Source of the DNA: Bacillota bacterium | GTDB lineage: Bacteria > Bacillota > Negativicutes > Sporomusales > CTSoil-080 | NCBI GenBank assembly: GCA_017889625.1 | Contig: JAGGAD010000024.1 | Coordinates: 1 to 35,944 of the forward strand | Direction of reading: 5' to 3' | Length of the DNA: 35,944 bases | Shown: in pieces, positions 3,412 to 24,983 of the stretch | Position numbering within the stretch: the first letter of the stretch is position 1 | How the letters are laid out: each line of letters opens with the position of its first letter | Made by a program: the position numbers and the translations under genes | The notes under the pieces: generated by a model | Told to the model about the DNA's origin: nothing | Database searches by the model: none | The model's input: the letters and a program-made list of their open reading frames with translations, nothing else

Positions 3412-6400
3412 CTATTCTACGTTTTTTTGCTTTAGCTTTTGTTTTAGCAAAAATATTTTTTTTATGTTTTTCAGCCATTTAGATACAGAATGGTTCTCAA
3501 AATATAGGAATATAATCGGAATCGCAATCAAAGTGAAAAATGTTGATGTTAGAAGTCCGCCGATAACCACCCAGGCCATTCCGACCCTTGTTTCCGAGCC
3601 AGCGGTCATCGCCAGCGCAGTTGGCAGCATCCCAACAATCATTGTTAGTGAAGTCATAAAAATGGGTTTTAATCTTGTTTTACCGGCCTCAATAACCGCT
3701 TCTTTCGCGCTCATTCCCCGTCCCATCAACGTCAAAGTATAATCCAATAGCAAAGTGCCATTCTTAGCTACTACACCATCCATAACCAAAATTCCAATCA
3801 ATGAATATAAATTTATGGTATTGCGAGTAACTGCCAACAAAGCCAGTGATCCAATAAGCCCGAACGGCAGGGAAAACATCCGGATAAACGGTGTTGAAAT
3901 GGATTCATACAAGGTCGCCAACAGCATATATACCAGGATCAGCGATAATACAAGGGCTTGAGCCATTTCACCAAAGGTACTGGCCATATTGTCCGCCTGG
4001 CCAGTAAACCGGTAAGTCACATTTTGCCCCAAATCTTCGGGCTTAATATTTTGGGCAATCTCATTTAAAACTTCTTGCAATGGACGCTCAGTTAGATTAG
4101 CGGCAATATTGATTGACTCTTGTTTATCTACCCGCCGCAGCATAACCGGCCCGACATTATCCTCGACCTTGGCTACATCGCCTAAGCGTACCAACCCATT
4201 ACCGGCCTGAACCGGTATCGAGCGAATATCGGACGCTTTAAATCCATCACTGTCTTTTATCCTGACGTAAATGTCAGTGTCTTGGCCATCGTTATTAGGA
4301 TCATTAGCAAAATACCCAGCCAATGTCCCTGTAATTGCTCCGGAAAATACACTATTAACGGCATTAACTGTCGTATTATAGAATTTCAACTTTTCCCGGT
4401 CAACAATCAACCGCAGTTCTGGTGCCCCTTCCGAATACGAACTGCGAATGTCTTTGACACCATTAATCTTGCCTAAGATATCTTGCACCCGATAAGAAGC
4501 TTTTACGATATCTTCCAGATTAGAACCGCGAATTTCTATTTGTACCGGTGAAGAATTACTGCCACTACCACCGGTGCCAGTCCCCCCCGACACCCCGGCT
4601 ACCGAAGATTGAGTTTCGCTAACTTGCACTATAGCCAGCGGAAAACTTTGCCGAAGGTACTGCCGCACTTGATCAGTAACCTGCCATACACTCCGACTGC
4701 GCTCTTTCCGGTCAACCATTTGAACGCTGACCCCGCCATAATTTCCGGCCGGTGAACCCACACTCGACAAGCAGTTGGTTATTTCTGGAATGGTCGTAAG
4801 ATAGTCTTCAATCTTTCTAACCTCAGCATTTGTTTTATCGATATTTTGCCCGACCGGAAACTGTACCGCAATCCGAAAACTGCCTTCATCGGTTTTCGGC
4901 ATATATTCCGCCCCGATAATACCGGTCGGAATTAAGGCAACAGCGCCAAGAAAAATAGTCAGCACAATCAATACAACTTTTTTGGGATTCACCAGACTCC
5001 AACTTAACAGTTTGCCATAGCGATCAATCGCGCCTTGCTCTAACCGATTCATGAAATCCCAGACCCGACCCCGGGGTTCTTTTAGCCCGTTTTTAAAAAA
5101 CCGCGACGCTAACATCGGTGTCAACGTAAACGATACAAACATTGAGCATAGCGTAGCAAATACGATAGTAAGGCCAAATTGCCGGAAGAACTGGCCAGTC
5201 ATCCCATTCATAAAGGCAATCGGCATAAACACAACCACATCGCAAAGCGTAATTGCAATAGCGGCCATGCCGATCTCATTACGCCCATCTTCCGCCGCAA
5301 TTTTCGCATCTTTACCCATCGTTAAATGGCGATGAATATTTTCCAGCACTACAATCGAGTCATCAACCAGAATACCGATACACAGCGACATCCCCATCAG
5401 TGACATCATATTAAAGGTGAATCCTGCCATGTACATAACAAAAAAGGTGGCAATCAATGAGGTCGGAATCGCAATCAGTACCGCTACTGTCGAGCGCCAG
5501 CCCCGCAAGAACAGAAACAACACTAAGCCAGTGGTAAACAATCCTTCGATAAGCGCTTCCAAGGTGTTATGGAGCGAATCCTGCACATACGTAGATGCAT
5601 CGGTAATCACTACAAATTGATAGTCCGGATACTCGGTGCGCAAGCTATTCAGTTGTTCCTTGGTTGCTTTAGCGGCATCCACCAAATTGGCATCACTATT
5701 TTTATATACCGTAAGTGAAATGGCATCCTGCCCATTAGTTCGGGCATAACGGGTAACCCGTTGATCCTGTTCTTTAATCGTCGCCAAACTGCTCAGCGGG
5801 ATATTGACGCCCTTAGAATTTGTAACATGAATGGATGCAAGTTCTTCCGGCGATGTATATTGTGCCGTCAACCGGACGTTGGTTTCCTTTTTGTTGGTAA
5901 AAACTGATCCAGCCGGGGTCAAAAGATTTTCTTGTCCAATCCTGGTAGCAATCTGGTTAAGAGAAATATTGAAGTATGCTAATTTATCTTTGTCAACTTC
6001 AACCGCAATCTCCTTATCGCGTCCACCATATAATTGCACATCAGACACACCACTCGCCCGCTGCAATCGTTCGACAAATACATCATTCGCCACTGTATAT
6101 ACATCAGCCAACGGTTTATCCGCAAGGACCGCTATTTCCATAATCGACTGCGCATTAACATCCCGTTTCATTACTGTCGGCGTTTGAATTCCGGTCGGTA
6201 ATTTACTAAGCACACGATTTACATACTGAGTAGCATCAATGGCGGACGTATCCGCATTGGCCCAAAATTCAAACTCAAGAATAATCTGCGCTTTTTCTGG
6301 TCGGGCTACCGAAGTCATGTGTTTCAAATTAGATAAACTGGACAGTGAATTTTCTAAAGGCTTAATTACATCTTGTTCCACTTGCGCCGTACCGGCACCG

Positions 6401-6555
6401 GGATAGTTGACGGTTACCGTAACATACGGAGTATTTATTGCCGGTAAAAGTTCCACGCCAATACGATAAAAGCTAACTAAGCCAAGAACTACAAATAGCA
6501 TGACAATCATCGAAATACCGATTGGCTTTTGAATGGAAAATCGGGTTATATTCAC
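3412..6555 (-). CDS. RND multidrug efflux pump permease, HAE1/AcrB family
   Basis: The inner-membrane proton-driven pump of a tripartite exporter. At 1047 residues it has the usual AcrB-family length. An N-terminal membrane helix (from ISMIVMLFVV) precedes a periplasmic porter loop, a central block of helices, a second large loop and a final helix block. The conserved acidic pair in helix 4 (GILVDDSIVVLENI) that relays protons is present, as is the matching helix-10 region (LIGILVMDGVVAKNG). A Gly/Ser-rich linker near residue 650 (GGTGTGGSGSNSS) is a flexible insertion. The GTG start overlaps the adaptor stop by four bases (GTGA), implying translational coupling. The operon order channel, adaptor, pump supports the assignment. 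The substrate class (hydrophobic drugs versus lipids or siderophores) is not determinable; HAE1 rather than heavy-metal RND is favoured because DD replaces the metal-pump signature. Confidence 0.95.
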   Translation of the reverse strand: MNITRFSIQKPIGISMIVMLFVVLGLVSFYRIGVELLPAINTPYVTVTVNYPGAGTAQVEQDVIKPLENSLSSLSNLKHMTSVARPEKAQIILEFEFWANADTSAIDATQYVNRVLSKLPTGIQTPTVMKRDVNAQSIMEIAVLADKPLADVYTVANDVFVERLQRASGVSDVQLYGGRDKEIAVEVDKDKLAYFNISLNQIATRIGQENLLTPAGSVFTNKKETNVRLTAQYTSPEELASIHVTNSKGVNIPLSSLATIKEQDQRVTRYARTNGQDAISLTVYKNSDANLVDAAKATKEQLNSLRTEYPDYQFVVITDASTYVQDSLHNTLEALIEGLFTTGLVLFLFLRGWRSTVAVLIAIPTSLIATFFVMYMAGFTFNMMSLMGMSLCIGILVDDSIVVLENIHRHLTMGKDAKIAAEDGRNEIGMAAIAITLCDVVVFMPIAFMNGMTGQFFRQFGLTIVFATLCSMFVSFTLTPMLASRFFKNGLKEPRGRVWDFMNRLEQGAIDRYGKLLSWSLVNPKKVVLIVLTIFLGAVALIPTGIIGAEYMPKTDEGSFRIAVQFPVGQNIDKTNAEVRKIEDYLTTIPEITNCLSSVGSPAGNYGGVSVQMVDRKERSRSVWQVTDQVRQYLRQSFPLAIVQVSETQSSVAGVSGGTGTGGSGSNSSPVQIEIRGSNLEDIVKASYRVQDILGKINGVKDIRSSYSEGAPELRLIVDREKLKFYNTTVNAVNSVFSGAITGTLAGYFANDPNNDGQDTDIYVRIKDSDGFKASDIRSIPVQAGNGLVRLGDVAKVEDNVGPVMLRRVDKQESINIAANLTERPLQEVLNEIAQNIKPEDLGQNVTYRFTGQADNMASTFGEMAQALVLSLILVYMLLATLYESISTPFIRMFSLPFGLIGSLALLAVTRNTINLYSLIGILVMDGVVAKNGTLLLDYTLTLMGRGMSAKEAVIEAGKTRLKPIFMTSLTMIVGMLPTALAMTAGSETRVGMAWVVIGGLLTSTFFTLIAIPIIFLYFENHSVSKWLKNIKKIFLLKQKLKQKNVE

Positions 6556-7817
6556 GAATTGTCACCCCGATCATCCGCGGCCGAGCTATGCGATATAACC
6601 ACCATTCCCGAGCGTAGTCGAGCCAAATTCGTCAGTGCAATTTGTTCACCTTCAACCAGCCCAGTGATAATTTCTACATTTTGGTCACCCCTGGCTCCAA
6701 TTTGGACTGCTCGCTGTTCAATGACATTTCCTGAACCAACCACAAATACATAAGCTGTACCATCCTTTTCTTGCACAGCGTCTTTCGCTACAACTAATAC
6801 ATTCTGCCGTAGCGGAGCATCAATCACGGCTCTAGCAAACATGCCACTGCGAACTTCCGGCCCCGGATTTTCCAACATAATCCGCGCCGAAAAAGTCAAA
6901 TTTTGCGCATCAGCAGCCGGACTTATATAGATAATCCTGCCCGGCAAGGTTTTCCCCAACGATTCTAGTTGCACATTTACCGCCAAGCCATTGCTTAACG
7001 CGCTGAGATCTTGCTCCGCTACCTGACAATCAATATAGATACTGCTATTATCAAAAATACTCAACAGCTTTTGACCCGCGGAAACCAAGTCGCCAGCTTC
7101 AACCTGCCGATAGCCAATCACTCCGGCCCGCGGTGCACGAATCACCAAATCATTGCGCTGTTTTTCCACAGCAGTTACGCTATACTGGGCCTTTTGGGCA
7201 GCGGCTCGATACGACTGAACCGACGCCGCGACCCCTGAATTCATTTGATTGGCCAAGGCATCCACCGCCGCCTTGGCATCAGAAACTTGCTGCTGACTTA
7301 CTTCTAATTCGTCTTGTGATATCCCCCCTGAACCATACACCATTTTATTCCGCTCATAACTAGCCAGCGCCCGCTGATAATCAGCCTTGGCTTTATCATA
7401 GTTGGCATTTACTGTCGCTTCGCTGGTTACTGCGTCGGATGCCGCCTGCTGATAAGATGCCTGGTTCTGCATAATAGCGATATCCGCATCCCCAGTATCT
7501 TGTACCACCAGAACTTGCCCCGGTGCTACCTGTTGTCCCAACATAACATTAACCGCAACCACCCGTCCTTGATACTTAGCTGCAATATCAACTTGCGCTG
7601 CCGGGACGGTCTGGCCGCTAAGCGCTATATGTTTTATTAAATCGGTTCGCTGAACGCCAGCGACATCAACCGTAGTTTGTTGCCGACCCGAGGAGGCCTG
7701 CTTACTCCCGGCATGGGTCAACTGAACAAGAGCGATTCCGACACACAATAGAAGAATTACCCCTGCAAAAATAAGGAGTTTCGCATTTTTCCCTTTTACT
7801 AAAAAATCATGCCACAT
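6552..7817 (-). CDS. RND efflux periplasmic adaptor (membrane fusion protein)
   Basis: A HlyD/AcrA-type adaptor of 421 residues linking the pump to the outer-membrane channel. A single N-terminal membrane helix (about 13-33, LLIFAGVILLLCVGIAL) anchors it; there is no lipobox cysteine. The first half of a lipoyl-like domain (YQGRVVAVNVMLGQQVAPG) is followed by an alpha-helical hairpin rich in Ala/Gln (about 110-210). Then come the second lipoyl half (VIRAPRAGVIGYRQVEAGD), a beta-barrel and a membrane-proximal domain near the C-terminus (VVGSGNVIEQRAVQIGARG). The ATG start has AAAGGAG about 13 bases upstream, a slightly long spacing. The gene begins 29 bases after the TolC-family stop and overlaps the pump gene by four bases. 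Confidence 0.93.
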   Translation of the reverse strand: MWHDFLVKGKNAKLLIFAGVILLLCVGIALVQLTHAGSKQASSGRQQTTVDVAGVQRTDLIKHIALSGQTVPAAQVDIAAKYQGRVVAVNVMLGQQVAPGQVLVVQDTGDADIAIMQNQASYQQAASDAVTSEATVNANYDKAKADYQRALASYERNKMVYGSGGISQDELEVSQQQVSDAKAAVDALANQMNSGVAASVQSYRAAAQKAQYSVTAVEKQRNDLVIRAPRAGVIGYRQVEAGDLVSAGQKLLSIFDNSSIYIDCQVAEQDLSALSNGLAVNVQLESLGKTLPGRIIYISPAADAQNLTFSARIMLENPGPEVRSGMFARAVIDAPLRQNVLVVAKDAVQEKDGTAYVFVVGSGNVIEQRAVQIGARGDQNVEIITGLVEGEQIALTNLARLRSGMVVISHSSAADDRGDNS

Positions 7818-7846
7818 TTTCTAGCCCCAGCTCCTTTTTTCTAAGC

Positions 7847-9145
7847 TTATTCATTTACCGTAACTCCCATTGCCGCCGCTAATCCAGCTTGATTGGTATT
7901 ATAATCGTATAATGCCTGAATATAGTTATTTCTCGCGGTAATCAAGGCCACTTCCGAATCAAGAATCTCCTGATTCGTTCCCAAGCCAGCATCAAACCTA
8001 ATTTGCGCAATATTATGCGCTTCTTCCGCTTCAGTTACCGCTACCCGGCTGGTGTCAATCCTTTTTTCTGCTTCTCGCATACTCAAATAATACTGGCTTA
8101 CATTGGCATAGATCGTATCCCCAGCCTGCTTGGCAATTTCTTGAGCTTTATTCAGAGCGGCGGTTGCTTCTTTTAGCTTAGATTTGGTTATTCCGGAATC
8201 AAACAAATTAAAAGATACAGTAAGGTAATACGAATAATAATTAAATTCCGTTCCCGGAAAGTGCCTACTTTGCCATGCATTATATCCATTAAGCGAAACC
8301 GTAGGCAAGTTACCGCTATTTGCAATTTTTATATTTTCTTCAGCAATAGCAAGATTAGCCTTATTCATTGCTATCTCCGGACGGTTTTTCAGGGCATAAT
8401 TCAAACACGCTTCCAGCGTCAAGGAGTTTTTTTCATATGCAAGATTTTCTTGCAGAATTACCTCACTGCCTCGCGGTAAACCAACCACTTTATTAAGATT
8501 AATTACCGCAATTTGATAACTATTTTGATCTTTTGTGAGCGTTCCTTCAGCATTTGCCAAACTGACTTGTGTCTGCAGGACCTGTAGTTTCGACGCCGAG
8601 CCTGCGTCATATTTATTCTGAAGATTTTTCAATTGAAGCGAATAGTCTTCCACCGACTTTTGATCTGCGGCAACAAGATTGCGATATTGTAACACTTGAT
8701 AATAAGTAGATGTAGCATCGAATTTGCTCTGCTGCTTAACTGCCGCCAGATTCAGTGTCGCAACTGTATAATTAAGCTTAGCTTGATCAACTAAGCTTTC
8801 ATTTTTTCCCCCACTATATAGCGGAAGACTAAAAGCAATTTGATTAGTAATAAGATCATACGGCGGCTTACTTGCTGAATCAGCATAAGTAGCTGCCGTC
8901 CGTTTCCGATAATCGTTATTGACATAATTTAACGTTAGTCCATTATTGCCTTTCGCTTCATTGACCGCCCACAAATATTTTTCTTTATCAGCTTCGGCCG
9001 CTTTTATATTCGAATTATTCTTTAGGGCCAGCGAAATGCAATTTTCAAGAGACAACTCAACCGGTGCCGCTAATACTGACTGACCTAACAAAACTAAAAA
9101 AGCAACCGTCATTATCAATCTGCTAACATATGGACAAAACTTCAT
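7847..9145 (-). CDS. TolC-family outer-membrane efflux channel
   Basis: A 432-residue outer-membrane factor. A signal peptide (about 1-27, ending VLAAPVE) is followed by the two pseudo-repeated helical halves of the family: LENCISLALKNNSNIKAAEA opens the first and LEACLNYALKNRPEIAMNKA opens the second. Closing helices resemble family members (AQIRFDAGLGTNQEILDSEV). Trimers form the outer-membrane barrel and periplasmic tunnel used by the adaptor and pump encoded just downstream. Its presence is direct evidence for a double-membrane cell. The start is fixed by AAGGAGG seven bases before the ATG at 9145. As first gene of the operon it carries the operon's upstream control region, which includes a perfect 34-bp palindrome. 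Confidence 0.94.
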   Translation of the reverse strand: MKFCPYVSRLIMTVAFLVLLGQSVLAAPVELSLENCISLALKNNSNIKAAEADKEKYLWAVNEAKGNNGLTLNYVNNDYRKRTAATYADSASKPPYDLITNQIAFSLPLYSGGKNESLVDQAKLNYTVATLNLAAVKQQSKFDATSTYYQVLQYRNLVAADQKSVEDYSLQLKNLQNKYDAGSASKLQVLQTQVSLANAEGTLTKDQNSYQIAVINLNKVVGLPRGSEVILQENLAYEKNSLTLEACLNYALKNRPEIAMNKANLAIAEENIKIANSGNLPTVSLNGYNAWQSRHFPGTEFNYYSYYLTVSFNLFDSGITKSKLKEATAALNKAQEIAKQAGDTIYANVSQYYLSMREAEKRIDTSRVAVTEAEEAHNIAQIRFDAGLGTNQEILDSEVALITARNNYIQALYDYNTNQAGLAAAMGVTVNE

Positions 9146-9212
9146 ACCCCAACCTCCTTCTTATAAGCGGTCATTTTCTCCCTGCTACACCTTATTTCCT
9201 ATATAAACACAG

Positions 9213-9246
9213 GAGCAATTTACACCATTAATGGTGTAAATTGCTC
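9213..9246. repeat. Perfect 34-bp palindrome between exported protein and efflux operon
   Basis: The arm GAGCAATTTACACCATT is followed directly by its exact complement, with no spacer. It lies 31 bases after the stop of the exported repeat protein and 67 bases before the TolC-family start. In RNA it would form a hairpin and could terminate the upstream gene, but no good T-tract follows on the minus strand. The spacerless symmetry with TTTACACC/GGTGTAAA cores would equally suit a dimeric regulator. Role undecided. Confidence 0.8.
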
Positions 9247-9277
9247 ACTGATTCGCTTTTTTACATCCGCGCTATCG

Positions 9278-9961
9278 CTAGAAGCAATTCCCGTTTTGAT
9301 CATATTGATGCCGGTACATCCCCTTATGTGGAAAAGCTGCTCTAACCGCCTGCAAGTCTTGTTTATATGTGTCGTTACCTACACCCAAATTTTGGGCTAC
9401 ATCCTTCCAGGTATTATTAATCCGACGCATTGAAAGAATATCACTTAACGATTTTCCGGTATTATTCGCCAACTCATTGGCTACAGCAATATCGCGAGAA
9501 TGATACCCCTGCTGCATAAGCTCCAGACTGGTTTTTTTTGAAATATTTAGCGTCTTTTCCAGTTGTCCCGAAGTTATATCCTGACGGGTTGTCTTCATAT
9601 TCTCTTTTGTTACGCCTAAAACTTGTGCTACATCCTTCCATGTATTAGTGAAAGTTTTTGCCGCCATTACTTCTTCCAATGATTTACCGCTAGCCTTAGC
9701 TAAGAAGGAGGCTCGCTTAAGATCTTTCATTCTGACGCCTTGCTGTTGGTACTTTAACACAGCTTCCTTGGTTACGCCAAACGTGTCGGCCAGATTTCGG
9801 GCCAGTTTGTCGGAATCACAATTACGTTGATGCATTCCATAGCCCGGTCCACCGACACCATTACTTTCCGCCGCTTGAGCCGCAAAGGGAATTATCGTGC
9901 CAGTCATAATAACCGCACCGCTTACTAATCCGATAACCAGTTTTTTGCTCCAAAAATTCAC
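9278..9961 (-). CDS. Exported two-repeat protein of unknown function
   Basis: I do not recognise a named family. A signal peptide (about 1-30, ending AAQA before AES) predicts export to the periplasm. The mature part is two helical repeats of about 65-70 residues (about 53-120 and 133-197). Each contains a (Q)QQG turn, a xxGKSLxxxx segment and an almost identical NTWKDVAQxLGV motif ending the unit. Each tail carries His and a single Cys: GMHQRNC (Cys48) and HKGMYRHQYDQNGNC (Cys226), a possible disulfide or metal site. The GTG start is chosen from AAGGAGG eight bases upstream. It lies between a two-component system and an RND pump, all on one strand, suggesting an envelope-stress accessory or sensor-modulating protein analogous in role, not sequence, to CpxP/Spy. 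That role is inference. Confidence 0.85.
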   Translation of the reverse strand: MNFWSKKLVIGLVSGAVIMTGTIIPFAAQAAESNGVGGPGYGMHQRNCDSDKLARNLADTFGVTKEAVLKYQQQGVRMKDLKRASFLAKASGKSLEEVMAAKTFTNTWKDVAQVLGVTKENMKTTRQDITSGQLEKTLNISKKTSLELMQQGYHSRDIAVANELANNTGKSLSDILSMRRINNTWKDVAQNLGVGNDTYKQDLQAVRAAFPHKGMYRHQYDQNGNCF

Positions 9962-10088
9962 TTTCGAAACCTCCTTAATATTTATTTAACGCTAATAGAT
10001 TCCGCTGCTTACATTCTTACTATAACTAAAAAATATGATCAAACCATGACAAAAAATTGACAAAAGTGTGAACTCTTATCGTCCTTAG

Positions 10089-10118
10089 TAAAAAACAAAA
10101 CCCGGTTTTCACCGGATT
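10089..10118 (-). terminator. Terminator of the two-component operon
   Basis: On the minus strand AATCCGGT-GAAA-ACCGGGTT forms an 8-bp stem with one G-U pair and a GNRA-like tetraloop, followed directly by TTTTGTTTTTT. It lies about 22 bases after the kinase stop and separates the kinase from the exported repeat protein gene. Confidence 0.88.
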
Positions 10119-10140
10119 AGAGCAGGCCGTCAAAATTGAT

Positions 10141-11604
10141 TTACGCTCCTGAAAATAAGATTTTGAATATAGTACCCTTGCCAATCGTACTATTAACCTC
10201 AACCGTAGCTCCGTGACGATCCATAATCTCTCTGGCAATTGCTAATCCAAGACCCGTTCCATTTTCTAACCGACTATGCGATTTATCGACTTTGTAAAAC
10301 CGCTCCCAGATAAACTGCAAATCTTCCTCCGGTATGCCACAGCCGGTGTCCTCTACCGCCAGCACAACGGTTGTAGCCATCCGATCAATGCTTACCGTAA
10401 CCGCGCCGCCGGCAGGGGTAAATTTCAATGCATTATCTAGTAAAATCAGCATTAACTGGATAAGCCGATCTCCATTGCCCCGAATATCGCTATTGTCAGC
10501 CAGTACCGTCAACTTTAACGTTACACCATTTAGTTCGGCTCGTTTCGTCATTATTTGCACCGCACCATCAGCAATTGCCGCTAACGGAATTACTTCTGTT
10601 GCTGATAAGCCTGGTTCCGCTTGCAATCGGCTTAAATCCAACATTTCTTTAATAAGCCTCTCCAAACGAATCGTCTCATCGCGCATTACTCCTTGATACT
10701 TAACTGCTTCTTCGCCACTAACCGCCCCGTCCAAAAGAGCTTCAGTGTAACCCCTGATAACTGTCAACGGTGTACGCAGTTCATGAGAAATATTAGCAAT
10801 AAAATCCCGGCGCATTTTTTCCATTCGGCTCGTATTACCCACAAACCGTTCCAATTCACACGCCAATACATTAAGGGATTTACCTAGTGCTCCTATTTCA
10901 TCCTTGGAATCAATGTTTATCCTAATATTATAATCACCACAAGCCATAGCAGCCGCCGATTTTTGCATAGCCTGGAGCGGCTTTACAATGCTACCTGACA
11001 GCCACCTGACAACGATAATGGCTAACCCCAACGCCAATAGGCCAATTCCACCAATCCAATAATACAATTGATGGAGGAATTCATCAATTCCCCGTACCGG
11101 AGAATTAAGAATCACGGCGGCTTCCACTTGCCCATCATTATTAGTAAATGGAACAGCAACCGTCAGCATATCCTCTTCATAGACCGGATGATAATAGTGT
11201 CTTGTCAAAACCTGTCCGGCAAAAACCGAGTCCATTTCCTTCATCGCCCGTTTTAACGGTCCAGTTCCCATTTTCCCTGGTGTACGCCGTTGTCCCGGAT
11301 TAAGCAACTGAGGCGTAGAAACTGTCAACACATTTCTAGAACTATCTACCACCCATACCCGGGCATCAAGAAACGTATCAACACTATTTATAAAATTTTC
11401 AAACTGATTATAGTCAATCCGCCCATCACGATAATTGTCTACAATACGCCCTATTTCATAGCCTTTGTTCAAAAGTTCCTGGCTCTTACTGGCAATCAAA
11501 TATTCTCGTAAAAGTACCGATATCGCCAGAGATACCCCCGCCAAAACAATAACCGTCAATAATATATAACTATACAATAACCGATTTTGTACAGACGGCC
11601 TCAC
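10141..11604 (-). CDS. HAMP-domain sensor histidine kinase
   Basis: A 487-residue membrane sensor kinase. A first helix (about 11-33) and a second (about 190-212) bracket an extracytoplasmic sensor of ~150 residues, followed by HAMP (about 210-262). The HisKA phosphoacceptor is His274 in NISHELRTPL. The ATPase domain has an N-box (LLDNALKFTP), a G1 box (VEDTGCGIPEE), an F-box (WERFYKVDKS) and a G2 box (GTGLGLAIA), so it should be active. The GTG start overlaps the response-regulator stop by four bases (GTGA), showing coupled translation. The signal is unknown. Because the sensor faces the periplasm and the next genes encode a periplasmic protein and an efflux pump, envelope or toxic-compound sensing is the likely job (inference). 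Confidence 0.95.
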   Translation of the reverse strand: MRPSVQNRLLYSYILLTVIVLAGVSLAISVLLREYLIASKSQELLNKGYEIGRIVDNYRDGRIDYNQFENFINSVDTFLDARVWVVDSSRNVLTVSTPQLLNPGQRRTPGKMGTGPLKRAMKEMDSVFAGQVLTRHYYHPVYEEDMLTVAVPFTNNDGQVEAAVILNSPVRGIDEFLHQLYYWIGGIGLLALGLAIIVVRWLSGSIVKPLQAMQKSAAAMACGDYNIRINIDSKDEIGALGKSLNVLACELERFVGNTSRMEKMRRDFIANISHELRTPLTVIRGYTEALLDGAVSGEEAVKYQGVMRDETIRLERLIKEMLDLSRLQAEPGLSATEVIPLAAIADGAVQIMTKRAELNGVTLKLTVLADNSDIRGNGDRLIQLMLILLDNALKFTPAGGAVTVSIDRMATTVVLAVEDTGCGIPEEDLQFIWERFYKVDKSHSRLENGTGLGLAIAREIMDRHGATVEVNSTIGKGTIFKILFSGA

Positions 11605-12293
11605 CGCTTCACCTCAAACTTATAACCAACTCCCCAGACAGTTTTTATGTCCCATGGCGCATTTTCCTGAGCACCGATCTTCTGTCTGATTCTCTTAATA
11701 TGGGTGTCAACCGTTCTGGTGTCGCCGCAATATGTATACCCCCATACACCTTCCAACAGCTGTTCGCGGGAAAACGCCCGGCCAGGATGTGATGCCAGAT
11801 GCCACAATAATTCCATTTCTTTGGCAGTAAGTGAAACTTCCCGCCCGGCTACACTGGCGGTATACTCGCCTAGATTTATTTCCAAATCGGAAAAACGTAA
11901 CACTTCCTGGTTGTTTATCCTGGCGTCAGGCAAGCGCCGAAGCACCGCTTTAACTCTGGCTACAACCTCCCTGGGGTTAAACGGCTTAGCAACATAATCG
12001 TCAGCGCCAGTGTCAAGCCCGATAATCCGTTCTTCATCATCACTAAGCGCCGTAAGCATAATAATCGGCACCCGCGAAAACTTACGTATTTGCCGACAAG
12101 CCTCCAGACCATCTAACACGGGCATCATTAAATCTAAAATTATTAGACTGGGATTTACCTGGTGAACCTTCGTGATTGTCTCCGCACCATCAGCGGCCGT
12201 TTCAACCTTAAATCCCTCTTTATTAATATATAAAGTCAAAAGGTCTCTGATCTTCGCATCATCATCGGCAATAAGCACCGTTTGCTCTGACAA
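11601..12293 (-). CDS. OmpR/PhoB-family response regulator
   Basis: A DNA-binding regulator paired with the downstream kinase. The receiver domain carries the acidic pocket (IADDDAK), the phosphoacceptor Asp54 (LIILDLMMP) and Lys103 (YVAKPF). The C-terminal winged helix ends with the typical DTRTVDTHIKRIRQKIG recognition region. I choose the TTG at 12293, giving 230 residues, because GGGGAGG lies 7-8 bases before it and the receiver fold begins at once (MSEQTVLIADD). An ATG 45 bases upstream at 12338 is in frame but has no comparable ribosome site and adds unalignable residues. Likely targets by proximity are its own operon, the exported repeat protein and the efflux operon. Confidence 0.95.
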   Translation of the reverse strand: MSEQTVLIADDDAKIRDLLTLYINKEGFKVETAADGAETITKVHQVNPSLIILDLMMPVLDGLEACRQIRKFSRVPIIMLTALSDDEERIIGLDTGADDYVAKPFNPREVVARVKAVLRRLPDARINNQEVLRFSDLEINLGEYTASVAGREVSLTAKEMELLWHLASHPGRAFSREQLLEGVWGYTYCGDTRTVDTHIKRIRQKIGAQENAPWDIKTVWGVGYKFEVKR

Positions 12294-24583: not shown

Positions 24584-24929
24584 TGGTGGAGGCGAGGGGA
24601 ATCGAACCCCTGTCCAAAGGTCTCGCTACACAGGTCTCTCCGAGCGCAGTCTGTAGTTTAAATTTTGCCCCGTTGACGCTTACAGACAAGCTTCTCTGGC
24701 GCTATCTCGATAAAAATTCCCAGTCGGCCCTCCGAGAATTGGGCTTCAGGTATCCCGCTAATTGACGTCCTATCCTAGGCCACGGGCGAACGCAGGCAGG
24801 ACGTTAGCATTAAGCTGCTAAAGCGTATTCGTTGTTTGCGTTTACTTAAAATCCACCGTATTGACGGGCAAATGGAACCCCGGCTCGCTACCTATGCCAC
24901 AACAACCCCTGTCGAAGCCAGTACGCCCC
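24584..24929 (-). ncRNA. ssrA: tmRNA (transfer-messenger RNA)
   Basis: The RNA that rescues stalled ribosomes. The 5' end GGGGGCGUACUGG and the 3' end ...CGCCUCCACCA form the tRNA-Ala-like acceptor stem (one G-U pair), with an encoded CCA. The T-arm GGACAGGGGUUCGAUUCCCC is canonical. The tag reading frame lies at 24810-24839 and encodes ANNEYALAA, ending in the usual ALAA degradation signal before UAA. With the tRNA-borne alanine the tag would be A-ANNEYALAA. The one-piece form is complete at about 346 nt. Its protein partner SmpB is encoded immediately upstream on the same strand. It appears to have its own promoter. Confidence 0.96.
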
Positions 24930-24983
24930 CGTAATAATAACGGGACGCCACTGTGGCGTTATACGCAAACTCAAGTGTTATTC

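Follow-up and report, generated by a model that had tools for sequence, protein, structure and literature searches.

A candidate envelope-stress circuit of the Negativicutes joining a two-component system, an exported repeat protein and an RND efflux pump

The contig JAGGAD010000024.1 (35,944 nucleotides), which constitutes the entire window analyzed here (contig C79), derives from a 3.3-Mb, 98% complete genome of the Negativicutes that belongs to the same order as Sporomusa. Six genes on the minus strand of the contig encode, in transcription order, a response regulator (RR), a membrane histidine kinase (HK), an exported two-repeat protein, a TolC-family channel, an adaptor, and an RND pump. 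The original prediction had described this block from the letters of the sequence, and its coordinates and common orientation were borne out, with domains that fit the assigned functions. The exported protein, encoded at 9961–9278, is referred to by the working name REP. The block is probably a consolidated form of a Negativicutes envelope-stress regulon, in which the two-component system (TCS) acts through a promoter element on REP and, by read-through, on the pump. The functional link between kinase, REP, and pump that had been suggested is supported by the RR-HK-REP gene order, by an element in the REP promoter, and by the same element ahead of distant RND operons.

Judging from its domain architecture, the HK would sense disturbance of the periplasm or inner membrane and phosphorylate the PhoB-class RR, which is predicted to bind tandem YTGTCA repeats with an 11-bp period, 11 bp ahead of a -10 box, and to activate the REP promoter. 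REP would then be made in quantity and transcription would pass a leaky hairpin into the tolC-adaptor-pump genes. The efflux pump may thus rise together with REP, as suggested by the lack of any other element, the short gaps between the genes, and the pump operons of relatives that lie under the same element. By analogy, REP is most likely a periplasmic Spy/CpxP-like helper that would bind damaged envelope proteins or the sensor domain of the kinase and feed back on the signal. That an OmpR-class TCS, with an exported helical-repeat family as the periplasmic partner or feedback regulator of its kinase, provides an envelope-stress response for the class as a whole is a more tentative proposal, which we consider plausible but short of probable.

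The promoter element and its regulon

REP homologues with as little as ~30% protein identity are preceded by a PhoB-type element, YTGTCA-N5-YTGTCA-N11-TANNNT, in which exactly 11 bp separate the half-site pair from a TATACT-like -10 box, and exact matches within 1.24 Mb of REP loci lie nearly all upstream of REP. The element before the window REP (10063–10019, minus strand) consists of the half-sites TTGTCA (10063–10058), TTGTCA (10052–10047), and TGATCA (10041–10036), spaced 11 bp apart, and a -10 box, TATAGT (10024–10019), that follows 11 bp past the last half-site. Tandem direct repeats with an 11-bp period ahead of a -10 box are the target-site type of the OmpR/PhoB class. Scored with a weight matrix derived from 62 sites in other genomes, the REP site reaches 24.3 bits and is the maximum of the window; the next unrelated place scores 1.1 and the maximum of shuffled windows is about 3. 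Across the whole 3.3-Mb genome, two promoters fit the element (REP and an EamA-type transporter on contig C52), compared with 0 for the reversed control. Another YTGTCA pair at 11012–10996 was judged a chance occurrence, as it falls inside the HK gene and has no -10 box.

The association of REP with the TCS extends well beyond the window. Among 75 non-redundant full-length copies of REP, a kinase adjoins 30, mainly in Sporomusa/Pelosinus-type genomes; this count excludes the ~930-aa "HK" matches adjoining REP at two loci (L132 and L157), which are unlike the RR-HK pair. The same-strand order RR-HK-REP occurs in ~25 distinct genomes, which span many Negativicutes families and include those of Pelosinus fermentans JBW45, P. 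propionicus, Lucifera butyrica, Propionispora sp. 2/2-37, Propionispira raffinosivorans, and P. arboris, and its usual syntenic site lies between birA/coaX/dusB and hpt/ftsH. The shared order and shared site thus indicate one old operon. The element is found upstream of 26 of the 30 kinase-linked REPs and of only 4 of the 45 others (Fisher p 5e-12, for sequences that are not independent). The genomes of these four unlinked copies (Lucifera copy 2, S. acidovorans, G038, and SKW2/G009) all carry the ancestral kinase at another place, as an RR-HK pair.

Genome-wide counts in 59 relatives, based on a strict pattern with the reversed pattern as control, recovered 157 strict elements and 6 reversed ones. 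The element is present in every one of the 28 genomes that have the ancestral kinase (150 sites in 118 Mb), compared to 6 of the 31 genomes where the kinase is absent (7 sites in 94 Mb), though p-values for such comparisons are overstated because related genomes are not independent. The contrast is also seen inside one genus-level group: S. acidovorans has both kinase and element, while the kinase is missing from S. silvacetica and Sporomusa sp. KB1, in which no element was convincing. In the latter two genomes, the recognition helix of the RR differs (RVIDTHIFNLRRK) and the gene order is adaptor-RND-REP-RR-HK, with an RR of a different kind and an RND protein that is 82–83% identical to that of the window.

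The element also precedes adaptor-RND operons homologous to the pump of the window, at a distance of up to ~400 bp, in nine genomes (G015, G028, G030, G035, G043, G049, G052, G053, and G057), one of which is Pelosinus JBW45 (G049), and in a further genome (G031) it reaches the operon via a leading marR gene. These ten genomes compare with an expectation of 0.005 from site density, and an element with one mismatch stands ahead of the adaptor-RND operon in three more (G036, G010, and G020). Since the same element precedes REP and distant pump operons, pump and REP share a regulon even when they are unlinked, and the link stands without adjacency in those genomes where the two are not neighbors. 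Taken together, the sites indicate that TCS, REP, and pump are predicted members of one regulon. Further targets are mostly envelope genes, encoding an HtrA-like protease, a GlsB/YeaQ-type membrane protein, families of small exported proteins, and, in seven genomes, a small outer-membrane beta-barrel. A common site ahead of the exported helper, the efflux pump, and protease or outer-membrane genes is thus found among the relatives, whereas the window site lies before REP only.

Two observations can be added on these targets. The conserved beta-barrel (containing APLTDLQQGETNIGYNHYNLD; loci L229, L232, L240, L246, L250, L252, and L262) is the most widespread target after REP and the pump. The genome of Lucifera butyrica (G005) has 23 copies of the element (e.g., on contigs C87, C95, C96, and C115), several of them near-identical (TTGTCACTTTTTTGTCACAAATTTGTTATAGACT), a pattern that suggests control by the element of a repeat or of a paralogous gene family that has expanded.

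Regulator identity and alternative readings

Several observations weigh against the proposed circuit. A search for the ancestral kinase at 1e-70 found no close copy in the window genome, and the window HK shares only 28–31% identity with the kinases linked to REP in relatives. The window RR is sister to the clade of REP-linked RRs and does not fall inside it; a second candidate RR, on the 4.7-kb contig C31, is placed inside that clade (99/97), though it is fast-evolving, and is a rival regulator. A regulator site had been envisaged at the starts of REP (9961), tolC (9145), and RR (12293), of which only the first is present: the weight-matrix scan of the window found no element upstream of tolC or RR, and neither the window nor the scanned loci of relatives have an element ahead of the RR that would point to autocontrol. 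With no element upstream of tolC, control of the window pump would depend on read-through past a strong hairpin. Additionally, several genomes that hold the ancestral kinase have no REP beside it, and Selenomonadaceae copies of REP have neither an adjacent TCS nor the element; REP therefore has uses outside the TCS circuit. The concern that homologues might lie mostly away from kinases and pumps thus received a split answer, with 30 of 75 copies beside a kinase and the Selenomonadaceae copies near no TCS.

It is unlikely that the C31 RR controls REP and the pump through the element while the window TCS governs something else. In addition to its position in the REP-linked clade, the C31 RR is 53% identical to the Pelosinus-type RR, compared with 50% for the window RR. 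Conversely, its recognition helix is altered (RVIDTTIKRLRHK), its DNA-binding domain is 47% identical to those of the REP-linked regulators versus 52% for the window RR (the highest value among those related RRs of the genome that were compared), and its kinase reaches an identity of only 32%. The window RR retains the RTVD helix (RTVDTHIKRIRQK, versus RTVDATIKRLRQK in relatives). Because it keeps this helix, has the closest DNA-binding domain, and stands in the conserved RR-HK-REP order, the window RR is likely the regulator that acts on the REP promoter.

The remaining alternatives concern function. Both the element and the recognition helix look like their counterparts in the PhoB system of E. 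coli, where the sites are direct repeats of CTGTCAT; on this reading the element would be a Pho box and its genes would respond to phosphate starvation through PhoB. This Pho-regulon reading was rejected as very improbable because the phoU genes of the tested genomes have no strict site nearby, the targets are envelope genes, and the element tracks the REP-linked kinase, while phoU is present in all six tested genomes. A role in metal homeostasis, with a kinase that senses metal, a histidine tail of REP that buffers it, and a pump that exports it in the manner of ZraP or Cus, finds some support in the CusB/HlyD_D23 similarity of the adaptor and in the histidine content of REP homologues, which is 10.8% in the C-terminal tails versus 2.0% in the folded part. 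The histidine-rich tails are compatible with, and leave room for, a metal-linked role. As an account of the whole system, metal homeostasis is nevertheless rather improbable: the RND protein is best matched by multidrug models (692 bits) and scores 390 bits with the CusA/CzcA model (TIGR00914), below its cut-off of 701, the RR and kinase fall below heavy-metal subfamily cut-offs, the regulon takes in HtrA and outer-membrane proteins, and several REP tails have no histidine.

A chance neighborhood, in which REP plays no part in the function of TCS or pump, would accommodate the REP copies of Selenomonadaceae and others that are distant from kinases and pumps. Against it, REP, TCS, and RND are united in three arrangements, namely the block in the window, the MFP-RND-REP-RR-HK order (with the adaptor as membrane fusion protein, MFP) of two Sporomusa genomes, and the trans regulon under one element. 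The shared element in particular disfavors coincidence, which we consider a highly unlikely explanation.

Relation to known stress circuits

In E. coli, BaeR sites lie upstream of spy, the mdtABC-bae operon, and acrD, with modest induction of tolC, and CpxP inhibits CpxA (PMC2731931). Like Bae, the system described here would bring TolC, an RND operon, and a helical exported helper under one OmpR-class TCS; unlike Bae, it has direct repeats of another sequence (YTGTCA with an 11-bp period), a helper that is not detectably related to Spy, a remote host, and ancestral neighbors that are TCS and REP rather than TCS and pump, as in mdtABCD-baeSR. With Cpx (CpxRA, CpxP, and DegP) it shares a TCS with a dedicated exported protein and a DegP/HtrA-type protease among its targets, but REP has no LTXXQ profile, an RND operon belongs to the regulon in many genomes, and feedback by REP is only proposed. 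The domain architecture, recognition-helix motif, and spacing of the site at the -10 box are those of the PhoB/OmpR-family regulators of 11-bp direct repeats, while the targets differ from those of PhoB in being envelope genes instead of pst/pho genes. The RR and HK miss the NCBIfam equivalog cut-offs for BaeR and BaeS (210 versus 380 bits and 188 versus 500 bits, respectively), and likewise those for CpxA and CpxR (136 versus 486 bits and 162 versus 341 bits). As REP matches no Spy/CpxP profile and these cut-offs are missed, the circuit looks like Bae and Cpx in its presumed working without being a member of either.

The logic of such a circuit is already known; its components, site, and lineage are new. 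Within the open-access literature (subscription papers were not covered), nothing relevant was found on this regulon, or on a TCS for envelope stress, for the Negativicutes, Veillonella, Sporomusa, or Pelosinus. The Negativicutes have an outer membrane inside a mostly one-membrane phylum, and a defined TCS, element, and set of targets (RND, HtrA-like, and outer-membrane proteins) make envelope monitoring in this group directly testable. The exported repeat protein family gains its first functional context. If the proposal is true, unrelated exported helpers occupy the same position in stress circuits, a role that CpxP and Spy fill in Proteobacteria.

The locus and the REP family

The RR gene (12293–11601, minus strand, as are all features of the block) starts with TTG at 12293, preceded by GGGGAGG, and its product is of the OmpR/PhoB class (Response_reg, E 6.5e-31; Trans_reg_C, E 1.1e-29). 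It overlaps by 4 bp with the gene for the HAMP-HisKA-HATPase kinase (11604–10141), giving an OmpR-class RR and a membrane HK encoded together, as in Bae/Cpx-type systems. An intrinsic terminator between HK and REP (10118–10099) ends the RR-HK transcript. The gap between REP and tolC holds a 15-bp hairpin without a U-tract (9246–9213; -25.8 kcal/mol, z -7), likely a partial terminator or an element for mRNA processing or stabilization. A TolC-type channel (9145–7847; OEP/TolC match, 1.1e-62), an HlyD-type RND adaptor or membrane fusion protein (7817–6552), and an AcrB-type pump (6555–3412; E 2.2e-233) encoded together form a tripartite ACR_tran-type RND efflux system. The 29-bp gap between tolC and the adaptor gene and the 4-bp overlap of adaptor and RND genes argue for one pump operon, at the 3' end of which lies a strong terminator-like hairpin (3400–3354; -38.7 kcal/mol, z -9.7). 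The original prediction gave each part its own terminator or hairpin, which is correct for the HK-REP and REP-tolC junctions and overstated for the tolC-adaptor-RND genes.

REP (9961–9278) is a 227-aa protein with a clear Sec signal peptide, cleaved after AQA, two ~67-aa all-helical repeats, and a histidine-containing tail. Repeat 1 (residues 57–123; 9793–9593) and repeat 2 (residues 134–200; 9562–9362) are 40% identical across 67 aa (E 7e-18), and the latter holds the best-conserved motif, INNTWxDVA. The AlphaFold2 model is all-helical with pLDDT >90 across the repeats, and a comparison with PDB folds gave no match at E <0.001 (best VIA Z 6.9, to designed toroids), an absence that is not probative. 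The family had been called unfamiliar, and indeed searches of Pfam, NCBIfam, PHROGs, and PDB sequences assigned REP to no named family; matches to HTH_10, Death, and Cas9_a were dismissed as weak, inconsistent among homologues, and unfit for an exported protein. The LTXXQ-type (Spy/CpxP/ZraP) profiles matched none of 33 REP homologues (Pfam-A, E 0.001).

REP homologues occur in 37 of 60 relatives. The window genome (G000) itself has two full-length and four short paralogues. The full-length ones, 38–40% identical, lie on C13 (L008, ~7.1–7.9 kb), next to genes for other exported proline/glycine-rich proteins, and on C75 (L009), and have neither TCS nor element. The short ones are exported proteins with a single repeat (~130 aa; L004–L007 and L010–L013, contigs C66, C100, C60, and C70), and no element was seen upstream of these four; similar short relatives occur in G001, G002, and G026. 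More distant exported proteins of other Bacillota (L093–L112; GYGWGEIVIACSIAVNSGKTLDDV...GWGEIAKGLGV) resemble REP in having a signal peptide and ~60-aa repeats that end in a motif like W-x-x-V/I-A-x-x-L-G-V, and carry charged low-complexity tails. The similarity is very distant (E 1e-4 to 1e-13) and points to an unnamed wider superfamily.

In Lucifera (G005, contig C27), a second adaptor-RND operon (L268) has an HK-RR pair of a different type, dedicated to it, directly in front, and thus this RND pump seems to have been captured by a TCS more than once. The only match of an Rfam scan of the window was a tmRNA gene (24584–24930), with the tag ANNEYALAA.

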